From positions 1-64,000 of the forward strand of contig NZ_JASISP010000019.1 of the NCBI RefSeq assembly GCF_030063185.1: a stretch of 64,000 bases of DNA. Direction: 5' to 3'. Source of the stretch: Arthrobacter sp. H35-D1 (GTDB lineage Bacteria > Actinomycetota > Actinomycetes > Actinomycetales > Micrococcaceae). Positions 23,543-45,009 of this stretch are shown one piece after another. The stretch's first letter is position 1. Each line of letters begins with the position of its first letter. The notes under the pieces were generated by a model. It did not search any database and was not told where the DNA came from. It saw only the letters and a list, made by a program, of their open reading frames with translations. Made by a program: the position numbers and the translations under genes.

Positions 23543-25000
23543 CTAGGACTTGGTTTCCTTGCCGTCTTTTGCTTCCTTGGGAGGCAGCGGCTCGGGGTGC
23601 GCCAGCGCTTCGGTGAGCATGGGGGCGGTCATCGCGATTTGCCACGGGCGGGCTCCCAGTTCGGCCAGTTGCCCGGCCACCGTTTCTTCGGTGATCTCCG
23701 ACGGCGGCCGCCAGCACACGCGGCGCAGGAAGTCCGGGGTGAGGACGTTCTCTGCCGGTATGTTGACTCCTTCAGCCAGCTCGCCCAGGCGTGCCCGCGC
23801 CGTGGCATACCGGGCGGCCGCTTCAACGTCGCGTTCGGCCCAGATGCGCGGCGGCGGCGGGGCGTTGCTGGAGACCTGCAGGGGTGGCGGTTCATTGCCG
23901 TTCTTGGCTGTTTGGATGGCATGCAACCACTTGGGGGCATCGCGTTTGGCGGAGCGGCCATGGAACCCGGACAGTGCCAGCAATGCCGGAACCGTGCCGG
24001 GCATGCCCTTGGCTGCGGCCACGATCGCGGAGTCGGGGATGAGCCGGCCCGGGGCTATGTCGCGGTGTTCGGCAAGCTTTTCGCGGGTCTCCCACAGCTC
24101 CCGCACGGCGGCCAGCTGGACGCGGTTGCGGATGCTGTGCGAACCGGACGTGCGCCGCCACGGGTCCACGCGGGGTGCCGGAACCCCGGCGTCGATGAGG
24201 TGCTGGAATTCCTGGGCCGCGTAGTCGAGCTTGCCGTCGTTTTCCAGCAGTGCTACAAGTTCCTCTTCGAGGTCCACCAGGACCTCGACGTCCAGGGCGG
24301 CGTAGCGCAGCCACGGCTCGGGCAGCGGGCGCGTGGACCAGTCCGCGGCGGAGTGTTCCTTGGCCAAGTGGTAGCCCAGCAGCGACTCCACCACGGCGCC
24401 GAGCCCCACACGCGGCAACCCGGCAATGCGGGCGGCAAGTTCGGTGTCAAAAAGCTTGTCCGGCCACATGCCGACCCCGGCCAGGCACGGCAGGTCTTGG
24501 CTGGCAGCGTGCAAAATCCATTCGACGCCGCGCAGGGCTTCGTCGATGATCTTCAGGTCGGGAAACGCCTCGGGGTCGATGAGCCAAGTGCCGGCACCTT
24601 CGCGGCGGATCTGCACCAGCATGGCGCGCTGGCCGTAGCGGAACCCGGAGGCACGTTCGGTGTCCACGGCGGCCGGGCCGCTGCCGCCCGCCAGGGCAGC
24701 GGCGCACCTTTTGAGCGCCGGCTCCGTTTCGACAACTGCCGGGATCCCGTCCTGGGGCGTGTCGAGCTCCACGAGTTCAGGGAGTTCGCCCAACTCCACG
24801 CGGCGGCCGGCAATGAGCACGGACGTCAAGGGGGCGGGCGCCACATCGGTGCCAATGCCGGTGGAACTGCCGGACGCCTCGCCGGCCGCACCGCCCGGCG
24901 GGGCACCGGCAGGGGTGCTTGTGGCCGAGTTGTGGCCGTGGTGGGGGGTGGACTTTTTGTCCCTGGCGCGGCTGTGTGAGCTTGATTCTGCGTTGGTCAT
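23543..25000 (-). CDS. rnd: Ribonuclease D-like 3'-5' exonuclease with HRDC domain
   Basis: A 485-residue exonuclease involved in 3' processing of structured RNA. The DEDD residues are visible in AAVDTERASGFRYGQRA (DxE), in LHAASQDLPCL (Asp) and in the YAALDVEVLVDLEEEL segment with the YxxxD of the DEDDy class. An HRDC-like helical domain follows near residues 275-350. The first about 60 residues are a low-complexity Gly/Ala/Pro/Ser region. In related actinobacteria this gene directly follows a DUF3000 gene; here an accessory island separates them (25175-28365). Confidence 0.92.
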   Translation of the reverse strand: MTNAESSSHSRARDKKSTPHHGHNSATSTPAGAPPGGAAGEASGSSTGIGTDVAPAPLTSVLIAGRRVELGELPELVELDTPQDGIPAVVETEPALKRCAAALAGGSGPAAVDTERASGFRYGQRAMLVQIRREGAGTWLIDPEAFPDLKIIDEALRGVEWILHAASQDLPCLAGVGMWPDKLFDTELAARIAGLPRVGLGAVVESLLGYHLAKEHSAADWSTRPLPEPWLRYAALDVEVLVDLEEELVALLENDGKLDYAAQEFQHLIDAGVPAPRVDPWRRTSGSHSIRNRVQLAAVRELWETREKLAEHRDIAPGRLIPDSAIVAAAKGMPGTVPALLALSGFHGRSAKRDAPKWLHAIQTAKNGNEPPPLQVSSNAPPPPRIWAERDVEAAARYATARARLGELAEGVNIPAENVLTPDFLRRVCWRPPSEITEETVAGQLAELGARPWQIAMTAPMLTEALAHPEPLPPKEAKDGKETKS

Positions 25001-25174: not shown

Positions 25175-25570
25175 CTACACCCCGGGGTCAGCTGGCCCGG
25201 CGATCGCCCCGGCCCGCATGAGTCCGGCCAGCCCCATCACGTGGGCCCCCGTCAGATTTGTGCCGGAGACCTGCGCGCCGTCCAGTTGGGCGTCCGAAAG
25301 ATCGGCATGGGAAAGGTCTGCCGCAGTGAGGTTGGCGCCCCGAAGATCCGCGTCCCGCAGGCACGCCCCGGCAGCCTTGGCGCTAAAGAGACTGGCTCCG
25401 CGCAGGTCGGCCCCGACCAGCGAGGCACCTTCCAGGAGGGCGTGGGAGAAGTCGGCCCCGGCCAAATCCAGCCCGTCGAGAACCACGCCACGAACGTCCG
25501 TCCCGTTCAGCCGGGCCGGGCCGGCCGTGAGTGCGTGTTCGATCTCGCCACGCGTCAAGCGCTTCGGCAT
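25175..25570 (-). CDS. Pentapeptide-repeat protein
   Basis: A 131-residue protein. After about 25 residues come roughly 13 consecutive A(D/N)LxX-type pentapeptides (for example GADFS, GASLV, GADLR, GANLT, GTNLT), which should fold as a right-handed quadrilateral beta-helix. There is no signal peptide. Such proteins range from gyrase protectors of the Qnr/MfpA type to proteins of unknown role; the acidic surface that defines MfpA cannot be judged here. The ribosome site GGAAGGAG is strong. It is the last gene of the island after the DUF6345-like gene, from which it is separated by 108 nt. Confidence 0.88.
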   Translation of the reverse strand: MPKRLTRGEIEHALTAGPARLNGTDVRGVVLDGLDLAGADFSHALLEGASLVGADLRGASLFSAKAAGACLRDADLRGANLTAADLSHADLSDAQLDGAQVSGTNLTGAHVMGLAGLMRAGAIAGPADPGV

Positions 25571-25678
25571 GGGTTCTCCTTCCCTTGGGGCACAGCTTCC
25601 ACCTGCCGCTTCAAGGACACCGGCCCATGTGCTGCGCCAACCGGCGGGGCCATTGCTGGTCCCGCCGAAACGGTGTTC

Positions 25679-27292
25679 CTAGTCGAACAGCGGAGCATTG
25701 ATCCAGTACCTCTTGCGGAAACCGCCGGCAAATTCGAGTTCAACGGCCTTGCGGGCGACCAAGGACGCATGGGAGCCCTGAATGTCATAGCCGACCTCGG
25801 TGCTTTCCGGAACAGTAGCGACCGAGACAGGCGCCTGCGGACCGGACAGGATGGTCCGCAAACGCGGCCCAAAAGCGCGAGCCAACGCTGTTTGCGGGTC
25901 CGTTTCACCGATGGCGCGCGCCAGCCCGCCCGGAGGTGCCGGCTCCCGAGTCGTGGCGCGTGGCTTGTCGGAGAGTTCCTCCACCGGCCGTATGCCGGAA
26001 TAAACATCCGTGACCCGTCCGTCGTTGTCAATATTGATCCGCACCATGCCGCGGTCTGTGGTGATCACCGGCAAACCGTTGACGAGTTGCCGGTATTGCA
26101 CCAGCGTCCCAGTGGTGAACGGATCCTCAACATGGCCGTCCCCCCTGGCTGAGACACCGCCTTCGCATAGGCTGGCAACCCTGTCCAGCACCAGCTCCGA
26201 ACCTTCGTCGAGACCGAAGTCGCGCACTGCGGCCCCCGCTGCGGCCAAGGCATCGGACCGGGACAGTTGTGTCCGGTTCTCCAAGTTGGGCTGGTTGAGC
26301 CGTGCGGAGACAAGGCCGGCATCGTCCACAGTGACAGTCCTGCCGTCAGCGGCCATGTGGGCGAAGCTGCCGAAGGTCCGGGCGGAGCCCCCCTGCACGT
26401 TGAACCGGCCCGCAATGTCCCGCAGTGACCGGGAATTCGGCGGCGCGAGGAGCGCGGTGCGCAACTGGTGCGGCATTTCCATGGACGGTGCCCGGACCAC
26501 GCTGGAAGCGGTGTCATACCACCGCCACCACCACCAATCCGTGCTGGCACGTTCGGCCGACAGGTAGCGTTCGTTGAAAAGCCTGTCCTGGGCCTGCTCA
26601 GGGCTGGCTCCGGTGGCGCATACGCTGGGCGCCTGGTCGTGGGCAATGTCCCAGCTGGAATTGAGCCAAGCTGAGCTGAGACTCTCGCCGGCCTGCCAAT
26701 GCCGCCAGAATCCCGAGCCGTACCGTGCATCGTCCCAGCTGACCGTCTCGAATCCAAACATCATTCGCAGTCCCAGGTTGGCGTCCTTCCACGTGCGGAA
26801 AGGTGAATGGCCGTCCAGCACGCGCAAGGACGAACAGGTCGACCAGAAAACGTACCGTGCGTACTCGTTCCCCAGCCGCATGATCGACGACGTCGCCGTG
26901 CAGTCATCGCCCAGCCAGGGAGCGCCCATCGGGACGTAGAAGACGCCATTGGCGTCCATTCCCCCGTGGCCGCAATGATATAGCACACGGGAGGAATCCA
27001 TGCCGTAAGTGTCTTGCCAATTGTCGTAGTCTTCACCGTAGGCCCACACTTTGACTCCCGCGTCAGTGAACCAGAAGTTTCTCGGCGTGAACTGCTCGGC
27101 GTAGGCCAAAAATCCGGCCGTGTCATCGTGGGTGAGGGTGAGCGAGCCCGTGTTGCAGAACGTTTCGACGCTGAACGCGCCGTAAAGTTTCGCGCCGCCC
27201 CGCGGGGCTTTGGCCCCGTCGGAGGCGGGGTCCTCCTGCCCTGCGGGGGCGGTGTCAGGGGGCGCAGGCTGTTGTCGCTGTTCGGTGTCCAT
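25679..27292 (-). CDS. DUF6345-like protein with a caspase-type His/Cys pair and a propeptide-like C-terminus
   Basis: A 537-residue protein. After a Pro/Ala/Asp-rich start (1-35), residues about 36-260 resemble DUF6345 proteins. RVLYHCGHGG (H109) and YVFWSTCSSLRV (C153) each follow a hydrophobic strand. Their spacing of 44 and local pattern match the catalytic dyad of caspase/gingipain-fold (clan CD) peptidases; this is my inference. Residues about 395-435, with YRQLVNGLPVI and INIDNDGRVTDV, resemble the FTP/PepSY propeptide domains that inhibit metallopeptidases. A run WWWWRWYD lies at 253-260. No signal peptide is evident. The ATG at 27292 is preferred for its AAAGGAG ribosome site over a GTG at 27340. 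It follows the metzincin gene by 44 nt. Confidence 0.75.
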   Translation of the reverse strand: MDTEQRQQPAPPDTAPAGQEDPASDGAKAPRGGAKLYGAFSVETFCNTGSLTLTHDDTAGFLAYAEQFTPRNFWFTDAGVKVWAYGEDYDNWQDTYGMDSSRVLYHCGHGGMDANGVFYVPMGAPWLGDDCTATSSIMRLGNEYARYVFWSTCSSLRVLDGHSPFRTWKDANLGLRMMFGFETVSWDDARYGSGFWRHWQAGESLSSAWLNSSWDIAHDQAPSVCATGASPEQAQDRLFNERYLSAERASTDWWWWRWYDTASSVVRAPSMEMPHQLRTALLAPPNSRSLRDIAGRFNVQGGSARTFGSFAHMAADGRTVTVDDAGLVSARLNQPNLENRTQLSRSDALAAAGAAVRDFGLDEGSELVLDRVASLCEGGVSARGDGHVEDPFTTGTLVQYRQLVNGLPVITTDRGMVRINIDNDGRVTDVYSGIRPVEELSDKPRATTREPAPPGGLARAIGETDPQTALARAFGPRLRTILSGPQAPVSVATVPESTEVGYDIQGSHASLVARKAVELEFAGGFRKRYWINAPLFD

Positions 27293-27336
27293 GGTGTGGT
27301 GCTCCTTTGCGTTGATTGCTGTTCTGCGTGCCACAG

Positions 27337-28365
27337 TCACCAGTACATGACGGCGGTCTGGCCGGAGGCCCCGCTCCAGTACAGCCGGAGCCGGAGCACA
27401 TACTTGCGGCCCTGGAAGAGCTTGAGGGAGAGATGGGAGTTCAAGTCGGTGCCGCCGTCGTCGTCACCGGCGAGGAAACGCAACTCGCCGTCAACTTCTT
27501 CGAACAGCACCATGACGGTGTCGGCCGTGCCGAAGCTGGAGATCTGGTACTCCCGGGACTCGGTTGGTTCGATCCGCGCGTCGGCCTGCTGCCCTGCCGT
27601 AAGTGACAAGGGCCTGGACACGAAGGGTTCCAGCTTGGGCGTGGTTGGTCCCAGCGGGGGGTAGAAGCGGAGAACCCATTCCTTGTCCAGTGTGGAGAGT
27701 CCGCCGGGCGGCCTCAGCCCCGCGTGGAAGCGGGCGGGTTCCACAATCAGCCCGGCCGGGAACCAGTACTCCATGACCGAGTCCGGGTCCCATTCGGAGC
27801 CTTGTACTTCGGCGACGGGGATCTTGCGCAGCACGTTGTTGTACGTCTGTTCGCGCGGCCAGAAATTGGGGCTGCCGGCGAAGTAGCCGTAGACCTTGTC
27901 CTCATCCCACACGATGCCTGCGAAGGGGTTCTGGTGTTCGTGCGGCATCCCCAGCGAGTGGCCGATCTCGTGCAGGGCCGTGGTGTGTCCGTAGTCGTCG
28001 GTGAGGTTCCAGCCAAAGTTCATGGTTGCCTGCGCCGCACCGATGCCCAAGGCATCGCGGCCCACGTATGACCATGAACCAGCATCCTGGTCGAAGGAGA
28101 TGCGCAGTTCTGCTTCATTGGCGGTGCCCACCTCGGCGAACGCCAGGCCGATGCCCAAAGCCTTCCATTCGGCAAAGGCATCGCGGACGGCTTGGCGCTG
28201 TGGTTCCGGGCCTCCAAGCAGCGTGTAGTGCAGCACAGTCCCGTTGGCCCAGACGGCGGACAGGACGGTGAGGAGGTGTTGCCTCCGGTCGAGCATCCCC
28301 GGTGGGGTCACCCGCGGGATTCGGGGTTTGACTGCACAATACGGTCGGGCGGTTTCCGTGGGCAT
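27337..28365 (-). CDS. Astacin-like metzincin metallopeptidase with a C-terminal PPC-like domain
   Basis: A 342-residue predicted zinc endopeptidase. The metzincin zinc site HEIGHSLGMPHEH places the ligands at H132, H136 and H142 with catalytic E133; the glutamate after the third histidine is typical of astacins (M12A). The Met-turn is SVMEY (M198). Residues about 250-342 form a beta-rich domain with GDDDGGTDLNSHL and a closing YVLRLRLYWSG, resembling bacterial pre-peptidase C-terminal (PPC) domains. Surprisingly, no signal peptide is visible: the protein begins MPTETARPYCAVKPRIPR. It is the first gene of the island, and the DUF6345-like gene follows 44 nt later. Its ribosome site is weak. 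Confidence 0.85.
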   Translation of the reverse strand: MPTETARPYCAVKPRIPRVTPPGMLDRRQHLLTVLSAVWANGTVLHYTLLGGPEPQRQAVRDAFAEWKALGIGLAFAEVGTANEAELRISFDQDAGSWSYVGRDALGIGAAQATMNFGWNLTDDYGHTTALHEIGHSLGMPHEHQNPFAGIVWDEDKVYGYFAGSPNFWPREQTYNNVLRKIPVAEVQGSEWDPDSVMEYWFPAGLIVEPARFHAGLRPPGGLSTLDKEWVLRFYPPLGPTTPKLEPFVSRPLSLTAGQQADARIEPTESREYQISSFGTADTVMVLFEEVDGELRFLAGDDDGGTDLNSHLSLKLFQGRKYVLRLRLYWSGASGQTAVMYW

Positions 28366-28627
28366 GGCTGGTTCCCATCACTAGGTTTTCCATCAGGTAA
28401 GCCAAGGCTATTGCTGCTCCCGCTGCGGGTCATGAGTGGGGGGACGCTCATGTTTTCTCCTGATGAGTCCCGACTGTCGGTGCCGGGCCAAGTGCGGCAT
28501 CGACCGGGCTTGGGGCGTGGACCGGGCACAGGGCATCCACAGGCAGCGCTTGGCTTCCAAACGCCTTGGGCCGGGCCGTTGCCATGGGTTGGTCCCGATC
28601 AGCCCCGCTGCCATCCTCCATTGCAAC
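28366..28627. other. Upstream region of the protease island
   Basis: These 262 nt between the metzincin start and the tandem repeat contain no convincing gene. They must hold the island promoter. A short inverted repeat, CATGAG/CTCATG with a 10-nt G-rich spacer (about 28431-28452), is the only structure I can point to. No strong ribosome site precedes the metzincin ATG, so an alternative start remains possible. Confidence 0.4.
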
Positions 28628-28697
28628 GGGGGCGCTGGTCGATCAGCGGGGGCGCTGGTCGATCAGCGGGGGCGCTGGTCGATCAGCGGGGGCGCTG
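28628..28697. repeat. 20-bp tandem repeat, 3.5 copies
   Basis: The unit GGGGGCGCTGGTCGATCAGC occurs three times without change (28628-28647, 28648-28667, 28668-28687), followed by the first 10 bp of a fourth copy. Each unit contains the near-palindrome GCTGGTCGATCAGC. The stop codon and last codons of the DUF3000 gene lie within the array, so the repeat straddles the end of that gene and the start of the island region. Confidence 0.95.
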
Positions 28698-29249
28698 TGG
28701 CAGCAAGGTCACGCCGTCGGGCACGGGCGGCAACCCGGCAAAGGTGCCCACAATATTTGCCCACGCCTGAAGGTGCGGGCGGACAGCGGTGCCGTTTGGC
28801 GTCCACGATGCGCGCAGTTCAATGTCAATGGCGTCGGGGCGGGCGGCAAGCGTCCCGTAACTTTCGGACAGAACGCGGGTGGCGGTCCCGCCGGCGCTCG
28901 TGTAGGCGGCACCCTGTTCTTCCAAGGATTCGACGAGCCACGCCCAGGCGACATTGCCCAACAGCGGGTCGTTGCCCATGTCCGGTTCCAGCCGGGCGCG
29001 GATATACGTCACGATGCGGAAGGTGCCGTCCCACAGCGGGGATCCTTGTGGATCGTGGAGCAGGATGAAGCGCCCGGTGGCCATTTCGTCGCCGTCGACA
29101 ATGATCTCCGCACCGAGTGCCACGCCGTACGGTGCCAGGCGGGCCGGGGCCGGAACTTCCGCGAGCATGATCTCGTTGCGTACCTTGCCCGCGCGCAACG
29201 ATGCCAAGGCTAGTTGGAAGTCAGCGGGAAGCTGCGGGAGCAAGGTCAC
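28683..29249 (-). CDS. DUF3000 domain-containing protein
   Basis: A 188-residue cytosolic protein of the actinobacterial DUF3000 family. Recognisable segments are RNEIMLAEVPAPARLAPYG, GRFILLHDPQGSPLWDGTFR and the C-terminal IDIELRASWTPNG followed by HLQAWANIVGTFAGLPP. Its function is unknown; family members usually sit next to the RNase D gene, as in mycobacteria (Rv2680/Rv2681). Translation starts at a GTG at 29249 without a clear ribosome site. The stop codon TGA is part of the first unit of a 20-bp tandem repeat, so the final residues (QRPR) are encoded by repeat DNA. Confidence 0.85.
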   Translation of the reverse strand: MTLLPQLPADFQLALASLRAGKVRNEIMLAEVPAPARLAPYGVALGAEIIVDGDEMATGRFILLHDPQGSPLWDGTFRIVTYIRARLEPDMGNDPLLGNVAWAWLVESLEEQGAAYTSAGGTATRVLSESYGTLAARPDAIDIELRASWTPNGTAVRPHLQAWANIVGTFAGLPPVPDGVTLLPQRPR

Positions 29250-43830: not shown

Positions 43831-43835
43831 GATCG

Positions 43836-43907
43836 TGGGCGATACTGGGTTCGAACCAGTGACCTCTTCGGTGTGAACGAAGCGCGCTACCACTGCGCCA
43901 ATCGCCC
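43836..43907 (-). tRNA. tRNA-Val (anticodon CAC)
   Basis: A complete 72-nt cloverleaf on the minus strand. The acceptor GGGCGAT pairs with ATCGCCC, the anticodon arm is CTTCG-TTCACAC-CGAAG giving anticodon CAC, and the T arm contains GGTTCGAAC. It reads GUG. It differs from the GAC isoacceptors at 44650 and 44927 mainly in the anticodon arm. Confidence 0.97.
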
Positions 43908-44430
43908 AAAGTCGCCTTCACAGCCCGTCAAGCGGGTTGTGCGCGTTCCTTGGTGCGTTCAAAACAATAGCCCAAACTGCTGCGCACTCATAATCGTCCA
44001 TGTTCGAACGCCTCCTTGTGCAACGGACCGCATGGTGGTGTCCGGGGATGGGGCGCCACCGGCAGTGTTGTGCCAAGAGTGTTGTGCCAAGAACCAGCTG
44101 GCACCCAAGGCGCCCGAAACGCACAGGGGAGTGTCCGGCGTCGTGCCCGGAAAAGAGTGAATGTGACGAGCACCTCAGGATTGTTTCTGCTCGAAAACGT
44201 CGAAATCGAAACAAATCGGGCCCAAATGGGGGCATTGAATGACATGCATGTAATTCGAATGGAAACGCGAAATCCCCGCCAATTCAACGATGCAGGCACC
44301 TCGCCGGCTTGGGAAGCGAAACCGGGAGCGGGCCGATTTGGTGTTTGGGAAAAAGCTCGGGTATTGTTTTCACCGCAGCAACACGGACTACCGAAGCGGA
44401 AACGCAAGCGGTAAGAAAATGTTACTCACT
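43908..44430. other. Intergenic region between divergent tRNA genes
   Basis: I find no convincing protein gene in these 523 nt. It should hold the promoters of tRNA-Val(CAC) to the left and of the Gly-Cys-Val-Gly-Val array to the right. A 14-bp unit AGTGTTGTGCCAAG is tandemly duplicated at 44064-44077 and 44078-44091. The right half is lower in G/C than the surrounding genes. Confidence 0.4.
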
Positions 44431-44503
<73 letters not shown>

Positions 44504-44527
44504 CGCAAGACACCGTTCAGTTTTCAC

Positions 44528-44598
44528 GGTGGGGTGGCCGAGAGGCGAGGCAACGGACTGCAAATCCGTGCACACGGGTTCGAATCCCGTTCCCACCT
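44528..44598 (+). tRNA. tRNA-Cys (anticodon GCA)
   Basis: A 71-nt cloverleaf with acceptor GGTGGGG/TCCCACC, anticodon arm ACGGA-CTGCAAA-TCCGT (anticodon GCA) and T arm with GGGTTCGAATCCC. The discriminator is T, the usual identity base for cysteine. It lies 24 nt after tRNA-Gly. Confidence 0.97.
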
Positions 44599-44649
44599 CC
44601 ATTAGGCTGATCCAAAGTATTTTGCTGTAGAGTACAGCGGAATGCATTT

Positions 44650-44721
44650 GGGCGATTGGCGCAGCGGTAGCGCGCTTCCCTGACACGGAAGAGGTCACTG
44701 GTTCGATCCCAGTATCGCCCA
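44650..44721 (+). tRNA. tRNA-Val (anticodon GAC), copy 1
   Basis: A 72-nt cloverleaf with acceptor GGGCGAT/ATCGCCC, anticodon arm CTTCC-CTGACAC-GGAAG (anticodon GAC) and T arm GGTTCGATC. It is identical to the copy at 44927-44998. Confidence 0.97.
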
Positions 44722-44771
44722 CGAATGAACTTGTTCATTCATCCAATGAAAGTTGGGCAAAAGAAGTAAAT

Positions 44772-44844
<73 letters not shown>

Positions 44845-44926
44845 CGCATATATATGGATGGACTGCCGGAAGCCGTGAGGTTTCCGGCAGTCTTGTTCCA
44901 AATCCGGATGTTGATCCAACGAATCC

Positions 44927-44998
44927 GGGCGATTGGCGCAGCGGTAGCGCGCTTCCCTGACACGGAAGAGGTCACTGGTTCGATCCCAGTATCGCCCA
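44927..44998 (+). tRNA. tRNA-Val (anticodon GAC), copy 2
   Basis: A 72-nt cloverleaf identical to the gene at 44650-44721 (acceptor GGGCGAT/ATCGCCC, anticodon GAC). It is the last gene of the array and is followed by a terminator 12 nt later. The Gly-Val pair appears to have been duplicated around the tRNA-Cys gene. Confidence 0.97.
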
Positions 44999-45009
44999 CC
45001 AGTACACCA

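Follow-up and report, generated by a model that had tools for sequence, protein, structure and literature searches.

In a 64,000-nucleotide stretch of the Arthrobacter sp. H35-D1 genome (contig NZ_JASISP010000019.1, positions 1 to 64,000; hereafter the window), three genes encoding an astacin-like metzincin, a protein of the Pfam family DUF6345 and a pentapeptide-repeat protein lie inserted between the genes for DUF3000 and ribonuclease D (RNase D, rnd). Comparison with DUF6345 loci of bacteria and archaea supports an association between this family and proteases that exceeds chance. The reading favoured here, for which we see about as much to say as against, is that the three genes constitute a modular cassette of probably latent peptidases restrained by prodomains and by partner or inhibitor proteins, similar to the protealysin-emfourin pair. 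A wider proposal, held somewhat more tentatively, is that DUF6345 may be the hub of undescribed cross-phylum peptidase-restraint cassettes of modular build, combining a transplanted prodomain with a pentapeptide partner able to bear a chagasin domain, exchange of M12A, M6, M4, S8 or C1A peptidases in one slot or in the near neighbourhood and, for C1A and M4, the matching inhibitor, while a tag domain common to M6 and papain enzymes would make a common recruiting or delivery mechanism possible. If the cassette works in the way favoured here, proteases that are unrelated to one another, and their antagonists, are assembled and swapped in modular fashion around a prokaryotic relative of caspases. 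DUF6345 is a Pfam family of unknown function; the comparisons suggest that it folds like a caspase and that, in bacteria and archaea alike, it is repeatedly linked with peptidases and their inhibitors. Peptidase-inhibitor operons are already known, and the novelty would reside in their build around an uncharacterised caspase-like family.

A three-gene insert at the DUF3000-rnd junction

The cassette, its flanking genes and the repeat at its border are located as follows.

27337-28365, minus strand: astacin-like metzincin (M12A), 342 aa, with a Pfam Astacin match and a C-terminal domain of ~85 aa
25679-27292, minus strand: DUF6345 protein, 537 aa, matching Pfam DUF6345, with a predicted caspase-like N-terminal domain and a YycI/propeptide-like C-terminal half
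25175-25570, minus strand: pentapeptide-repeat protein, 131 aa, matching Pfam PF00805, without a chagasin domain
28683-29249, minus strand: flanking DUF3000 gene (Pfam DUF3000, 231.9 bits)
23543-25000, minus strand: flanking RNase D gene (rnd), with Pfam exonuclease and HRDC domains; TIGR01388 at 127.5 bits, below its cut-off
28627-28697, no strand: perfect tandem repeat of 20 bp x 3.5 where the insert borders DUF3000, running into the end of that gene

Read on the minus strand the order is DUF3000, metzincin, DUF6345, pentapeptide and rnd, and the gaps within the cassette measure 44 bp (metzincin to DUF6345) and 108 bp (DUF6345 to pentapeptide), so that the original prediction of three same-strand genes with short gaps between the two flanking genes holds in its coordinates, gene calls and Pfam matches. 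Clear ribosome-binding sites precede the DUF6345 and pentapeptide genes; the DUF6345 start is the ATG at 27292, which lies behind an AAAGGAG site, and the GTG at 27340 has no such site. The 44-bp gap and the same strand suggest co-transcription of the metzincin and DUF6345 genes. Scanning the locus for promoters and terminators was uninformative (0 promoters; one terminator-like site against 3.0 in shuffles), and the GC content of the island, ~62-68%, is near or slightly below that of its flanks.

All 23 genomes of the genus contain rnd, and in each of the 22 apart from the present one DUF3000 stands upstream of rnd, in line, within this genus, with the earlier view that the two genes are normally neighbours. 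Taken between tblastn ends, the gap separating them is 43-185 bp in 20 genomes, 368 bp in L086, 1,052 bp in L098 and 3,683 bp in the window, and none of the three cassette proteins had a match at the 22 other junctions. In the comparison with the two nearest relatives (gap 79 bp), homology ends in the last DUF3000 codons and restarts ~20 bp before rnd. The three genes are an insert at this junction, specific to this genome among the 23 of the genus. No transposase or integrase gene lies between the flanking genes, whose space is filled by the three open reading frames (ORFs), and repeats flanking the insert on both sides were not found, the tandem repeat standing at the DUF3000 border only; of the linked mobile system that had been proposed, the inserted island survives and a mobile element in the strict sense does not. 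In another species of the genus an alpha/beta-hydrolase-like ORF (L098:2901-4256, named by eye) fills the gap, and the junction may therefore have gained genes repeatedly among the 23 genomes.

Distribution of DUF6345 and its neighbouring peptidases

Of 295 genomes of the family one contains DUF6345, and a protein search put it in 3 of 396 genomes of the phylum, the present genome being counted in both. From genome contigs, 65 relatives, most near full length, were collected in Actinomycetota, Cyanobacteriota, Pseudomonadota, Bacteroidota, Chlorobiota, Verrucomicrobiota, Acidobacteriota, Planctomycetota and Zixibacteria, and also in methanogenic archaea. The 70 other DUF6345 loci that were scanned include near duplicates (L007 and L019 probably represent the same genome, and L008 and L020 likewise look identical), closely related Paracoccus and some short contigs; the 39 loci examined for neighbours are 37 dereplicated ones, window included, together with L017 and L076. 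In a tree, the window groups with Blastococcus (Shimodaira-Hasegawa-like approximate likelihood ratio test, SH-aLRT, 98) and next with Nocardioides (84). The name DUF6345 returned no paper in the PubMed Central (PMC) literature, a search outside which most subscription journals lie.

A relative of the pentapeptide gene lies directly downstream of DUF6345 on the same strand in 16 of the 70 other loci, distributed over three phyla (Blastococcus, Nocardioides, three Microcystis and 11 of 13 Paracoccus loci). A metzincin adjoins DUF6345 in the window and in none of these 70 loci, and, judged by contig or coordinate, none lies closer than 6 kb to DUF6345 in the 37 other DUF6345 genomes searched, 9 of which hold some match to the metzincin (P0001), several of them weak. 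A fixed metzincin-DUF6345 pair was accordingly rejected; the recurrent pair is DUF6345 with its pentapeptide neighbour, and the place of the peptidase can be taken by different enzymes. In the slot upstream of DUF6345 the window has an M12A enzyme, Blastococcus an S8 subtilase, Nocardioides a C1A papain and Microcystis an M6 peptidase, and within the clade of the first three only the C1A version has a chagasin domain on its pentapeptide protein.

Across the 39 loci a peptidase was recognised in 16. Papain-like C1A genes occur near DUF6345 in L017, L021, L022/L024/L074, L031, L050, L052, L053 and L070; thermolysin-like M4 genes in L007/L019, L022/L024/L074 and L076; subtilisin-like S8 genes in L012, L022/L024, L025, L042 and six Streptomyces loci, whose S8 proteins look signal-like at the N-terminus by eye and count as weak evidence; and M6 genes in three Microcystis. 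The in-house neighbour profiles were seeded from these same loci, the independent checks being Pfam and whole-genome family searches; a 127-aa protein of L016, which has no more than the C-terminal tag in common with the M6 proteins, was kept out of the M6 count, and the pentapeptide gene of L061 was added from the locus scan.

The peptidases are frequently accompanied by their inhibitors. An I42 chagasin is present in 9 of the 10 loci with C1A near DUF6345, the exception being L017, a 4.8-kb contig, and emfourin in 6 of the 6 M4 loci. The Pfam chagasin match is above cut-off in L016, L021, L022, L031, L050, L052, L053 and L070 and below it in L041, and that of emfourin is above cut-off in L076. 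Chagasin-C1A pairs were seen near DUF6345 in Zixibacteria, Mycolicibacter, Chlorobiaceae, Mucilaginibacter, Tannerella, Nocardioides and a Chitinophagaceae metagenome-assembled genome (MAG), and M4-emfourin pairs in Nocardia, Mycolicibacter and an actinomycetote MAG. Among the family matches counted across 38 DUF6345 genomes, 9 of 27 for I42, 4 of 16 for emfourin and 9 of 52 for C1A fall within 5.5 kb of DUF6345, where 0.09, 0.036 and 0.18 would be expected under a Poisson model that assumes random gene positions, ignores shared ancestry and counts two Mycolicibacter genomes separately; some of these matches are fragments of one gene. In several DUF6345 genomes C1A-I42 pairs also occur away from DUF6345, so that the pair is a module in its own right, joined by DUF6345. 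Chagasin-like genes with no C1A neighbour were found in L016 (where the upstream side lies beyond the contig), L041 and Paracoccus.

These neighbourhoods bear directly on an alternative that we consider unlikely, yet deserving of serious attention, namely that the DUF6345-pentapeptide pair works independently and that the metzincin, acquired together with it, has no relation to it. Such accretion would agree with the lack of a metzincin in the 70 other loci and with its solitary occurrence elsewhere, both as a 64% identical second copy and in 2 other genomes of the genus. It does not explain why a peptidase occupies the upstream slot in Microcystis as well as in the two nearest relatives, nor why other peptidases and inhibitors recur near DUF6345 far above chance, and the 44-bp gap and common strand also speak for a joint unit.

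Other enzymes were observed near some DUF6345 genes (L022/L102/L103 of Mycolicibacter, L042 of Streptomyces and L019), including an N-acetylmuramoyl amidase, a phospholipase D (PLD)-like protein and Endonuclease_NS. The same neighbourhoods hold an animal-type haem peroxidase and an alpha/beta hydrolase, and a peroxidase like that of L103 appears again, by eye, in L019.

A predicted caspase-like domain with a prodomain-like half

The DUF6345 protein matches its Pfam family (PF19872) at 54.6 bits, above the gathering cut-off of 26.9, and three features within it are relevant here.

26957-26986, minus strand: His motif VLYHCGHGGM, residues 103-112, after a strand, with H109 as candidate catalytic His (from conservation)
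26834-26836, minus strand: Cys153 in FWSTC, candidate nucleophile (from conservation)
25682-26479, minus strand: C-terminal half, residues 272-537, prodomain-like (from hhalign and a YycI fold match)

All 37 dereplicated sequences agree in residues Y105, H106, G108, H109 and G110. Relatives were collected with two patterns, one of which is the His motif, so that its invariance is in part a result of the search; at least 7 of the 37 sequences carry a residue 111 outside the search pattern and still keep the motif. Position 153, which lies outside the search patterns, is Cys in 30 of the 37 and Ser in 7, all from Paracoccus. The structural model (predicted local distance difference test, pLDDT, 88.5; predicted template modelling score, pTM, 0.89; 50 sequences in the alignment) places strands immediately before the HxGHG loop and before Cys153. 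Its Foldseek matches include YycI (3.2e-5), MALT1 (2.8e-4) and insect caspase-1 (8.2e-3, probability 0.90), followed by weaker matches to more caspases and metacaspases, interspersed with unrelated low-probability hits. The Foldseek table gave no aligned ranges; from the motifs and a weak Pfam YycI match at residues 397-431, we infer that the caspase matches belong to the N-terminal half and the YycI match to the C-terminal half. By the fold criterion of clan CD, the model suggests that the N-terminal domain is caspase-like. As in caspases, the paracaspase MALT1 and metacaspases, the His precedes the Cys and each follows a strand in the predicted fold; DUF6345 differs from them as a distinct family with a YycI/propeptide-like C-terminal half and no meaningful sequence match to solved structures, a profile search of the Protein Data Bank (PDB) having yielded one chance-level match (E 0.28). 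Conservation and predicted fold support the candidate caspase-type His/Cys pair and the propeptide-like end that had been noticed in this protein; the presence of two predicted peptidases of different clans is likewise supported.

With regard to the C-terminal half, residues 272-440 match the N-terminal region of another DUF6345 protein, from a Nocardioides MAG (L119:4160-6037; hhalign 89.7%, E 1.8e-6, in a single comparison), which has a signal-peptide-like start. DUF6345 proteins with such a start have the same domain and a homologous second region, and the order is reversed: the propeptide-like region stands before the DUF6345 domain in L119 and after it in the cassette form. This swap hints, as a suggestion only, at a prodomain role for the C-terminal half. 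The His motif of L119 reads YTGHG, so that only the second His is common with the window protein. Two descriptions of this half were abandoned: the Pfam FTP label (10.9 bits against a cut-off of 21), replaced by the fold and profile evidence, and a conservation equal to that of the catalytic half, 23 of the 28 invariant columns lying in the caspase-like half and 5 in the C-terminal half.

That uneven distribution of invariant columns, together with a Cys at position 153 in 30 of 30 non-Paracoccus dereplicated sequences, argues against the possibility, in our judgement a minor one, that DUF6345 is a caspase-like pseudoenzyme or adaptor which binds peptidases through its propeptide-like half. 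What such an adaptor would account for is the behaviour of the Paracoccus copies, since 7 of 7 dereplicated sequences with Ser for Cys keep both the His motif and the C-terminal half, and 6 of these 7 have the pentapeptide partner gene, which is absent in L011.

The pentapeptide partner and a shared C-terminal tag

The pentapeptide protein of the window matches Pfam PF00805 at 86.5 bits (cut-off 20.2) and is 55% identical to the Blastococcus partner. The partners of DUF6345 belong to a single subfamily, in which the N-terminus and an LWS/LFS..A segment are conserved. The Nocardioides partner carries a C-terminal chagasin domain (I42, Pfam 45.7 bits). In Paracoccus the C-terminal part goes unrecognised by Pfam and resembles the chagasin set in a profile comparison (probability 86, E 4.7e-6); the model of this protein (pLDDT 79.7, pTM 0.51) matches the cysteine-protease inhibitor EhICP2 (E 8.5e-5, probability 1.00), below many pentapeptide hits. 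The arrangement of chagasin with pentapeptide repeats returned no paper in the same PMC literature, with most subscription journals outside it. A gyrase-protecting protein of the Qnr/MfpA type was considered for the window protein and left aside, Qnr and MfpA scores being far below their cut-offs.

A further domain, possibly a common tag, is shared by otherwise unrelated peptidases. About 75 C-terminal residues of a Microcystis M6 peptidase are similar to the end of the Nocardioides papain (39% identity, 4e-18), and the same segment matches a free-standing 127-aa protein beside DUF6345 in Verrucomicrobium (L016; 35%, 6e-15), for which no Pfam family was found at E 0.1. The copies of this tag domain are as follows.

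L013:5697-5930, L070:5559-5792 and L016:1599-1982: C-terminal tag domain
L017:1137-1331 and L021:5581-5793: possibly related ends

Papains from Methanosarcina and from Zixibacteria end in a C-terminal part that may be related; the papain ends of L017 and L021 match one another, and it takes a profile built on all four to bring them together with the others. The tag profile did not find the window metzincin. Because the tag is common to unrelated enzymes, one recruiting or delivery mechanism may serve both.

The metzincin of the window

The earlier assignment of an astacin-like metzincin is confirmed by the Pfam Astacin match of 33 bits (cut-off 22.5), and two sites are of interest.

27934-27972, minus strand: zinc site HEIGHSLGMPHEH, H132-H144, with HE..H..G..H aligned in homologues
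28336-28338, minus strand: Cys10, candidate cysteine switch, aligned with the N-terminal Cys of close homologues

The HExxHxxGxxH zinc motif reads HEIGHSLGMPH, as the M12A family requires, and the Met-turn reads SVMEYWF, with S(V/I)M.Y aligned in homologues, in accordance with the S-x-M-x-Y pattern of astacin-type metzincins. The protein matches the bacterial astacin myroilysin (phmmer 7.5e-39), with which it has in common a like catalytic domain and an N-terminal Cys of the kind found in cysteine-switch zymogens; it differs in lacking a visible signal peptide, in its extra C-terminal domain and in the location of its gene beside DUF6345. The N-terminal Cys is aligned in 8 of 8 close metzincins, the present one included (P0001, L003-L005, L109-L112), and is present and unaligned in the distant L113 and L114. 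By analogy with the switch described for myroilysin (PMC9848320), the metzincin is probably a latent zymogen held by this Cys. Among the 23 genomes of the genus 3 hold the metzincin, and among 296 of the phylum 7 do, the present genome being counted in both. A second, AbsR1-like metzincin on contig 22 of the same genome (L118:6358-7386) is the 64% identical copy mentioned above; no DUF6345 gene lies beside it, and it sits between a response-regulator gene and a folD-like gene, both named by eye.

The best NCBIfam match is AbsR1 (NF050131), at 437.9 bits over 293 profile positions and below the 650 cut-off, which places both proteins in the same metzincin subfamily; judged by sequence, the public equivalog name beta-glucuronidase AbsR1 rests on a metzincin subfamily. 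AbsR1 is SCO6992 of Streptomyces coelicolor, and the relevant report describes beta-glucuronidase activity and no protease activity for a fusion with maltose-binding protein (MBP-SCO6992), assayed at full length after production in E. coli JM109 with 1 mM ethylenediaminetetraacetic acid (EDTA) in the purification buffer (PMC9705864). The clone of that study held SCO6992 and SCO6993 in opposite directions (PMC9705864). The assay of a full-length fusion leaves room for a latent form of SCO6992, and, together with the EDTA purification, it calls for caution with the glucuronidase name.

Proposed mechanism and alternatives

In the mechanism that we propose, the three genes would act as one operon-like cassette, the core being the caspase-like DUF6345 protein and its dedicated pentapeptide partner, while the upstream slot would hold one exchangeable peptidase, here a latent metzincin with a cysteine switch. 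DUF6345, as a putative peptidase, would be kept in check by its built-in propeptide-like C-terminal half, and the pentapeptide protein of the window may be a restraining or docking partner; in relatives, papain-like and protealysin-like enzymes are accompanied by the matching inhibitor, chagasin or emfourin. Destructive peptidases could in this way be stored under restraint inside the producing cell and act, on targets of that or another cell, once restraint is lost, on lysis, on entry into another cell or, as self-killing, under stress. The earlier suggestion was a proteolytic cascade; the chagasin and emfourin findings shift the picture away from it, towards a peptidase-with-restraint cassette.

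The closest known counterpart is protealysin-emfourin of Serratia proteamaculans, where an intracellular M4 peptidase has a dedicated inhibitor gene, as in the cassette proposed, and whose operon is read by its authors as typical of interbacterial competition (PMC9505478). The window cassette differs from it in having no emfourin, in using a metzincin and in a core of caspase-like and pentapeptide proteins. Chagasins inhibit papain-like peptidases (PMC7863939); the window cassette has neither an I42 domain nor a C1A enzyme, its partner being a pentapeptide protein alone. A known inhibitor gene adjoining the peptidase is absent in the window and present in relatives.

Several results weigh against the restrained-peptidase cassette. 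No known inhibitor (I42 or emfourin) occurs in the window cassette, whose pentapeptide protein is devoid of a chagasin domain, and 15 of the 39 loci showed no recognisable peptidase, inhibitor or pentapeptide partner up to ~5.5 kb away, some contigs being short. Beside the Paracoccus copies, all 7 dereplicated members of which have Ser for Cys, no peptidase was recognised bar one weak S8 profile match in L063, and a C1A gene is lacking in all 4 Paracoccus genomes searched, so that their chagasin-like domain has no papain of its own to inhibit; the chagasin-like gene of L041 likewise lacks a C1A neighbour. The Foldseek support for a caspase fold is moderate, with no more than three matches reaching E 0.001 and a template modelling (TM) score by query length of ~0.2. 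Finally, the purified MBP fusion of the streptomycete metzincin homologue showed no protease activity (PMC9705864).

A role in regulated housekeeping or stress proteolysis, in which latent intracellular peptidases and inhibitors trim the cell's own proteins and take no part in competition or death, appears to us rather improbable. By eye, no signal peptide is visible in the N-termini of the three cassette proteins, as had been noted before, and no delivery machinery is apparent in the window gene list, which was not family-searched; moreover, protealysin cleaves FtsZ and RecA (PMC9505478). The patchy distribution, with DUF6345 in a single genome of the family, and the exchange of peptidases fit conflict better, as do the amidase, nuclease, PLD-like protein and haem peroxidase near some copies.

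An anti-phage defence cassette, in line with the phage response once suggested for these genes, is very doubtful. The island is small and located at a chromosomal junction, and caspase-like proteins are known in some defence systems; on the other side, 0 PADLOC families match the three cassette proteins, 16 stretches of viral contigs fit a DUF6345 pattern with 0 confirmed as relatives, and no defence-type gene was recognised by eye among the neighbours read, which were not run against PADLOC.

Least credible of all is that the upstream protein is a beta-glucuronidase like AbsR1, a reading that can appeal to the 437.9-bit match and to the activity of MBP-SCO6992 and that is opposed by the 650-bit cut-off, the astacin-type sequence near myroilysin, the origin of the assayed full-length fusion in E. 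coli JM109 and EDTA buffer, and the fact that E. coli has a beta-glucuronidase of its own.

Additional observations

The present genome carries one I42 gene, one emfourin gene and one C1A gene, all on other contigs, and on its contig 85 (L117:3276-4624) a thermolysin-like M4 gene is followed by the emfourin gene, apart from the cassette. Within the window, six tRNA genes (Val, Gly, Cys, Val, Gly, Val) are clustered at 43835-45001.

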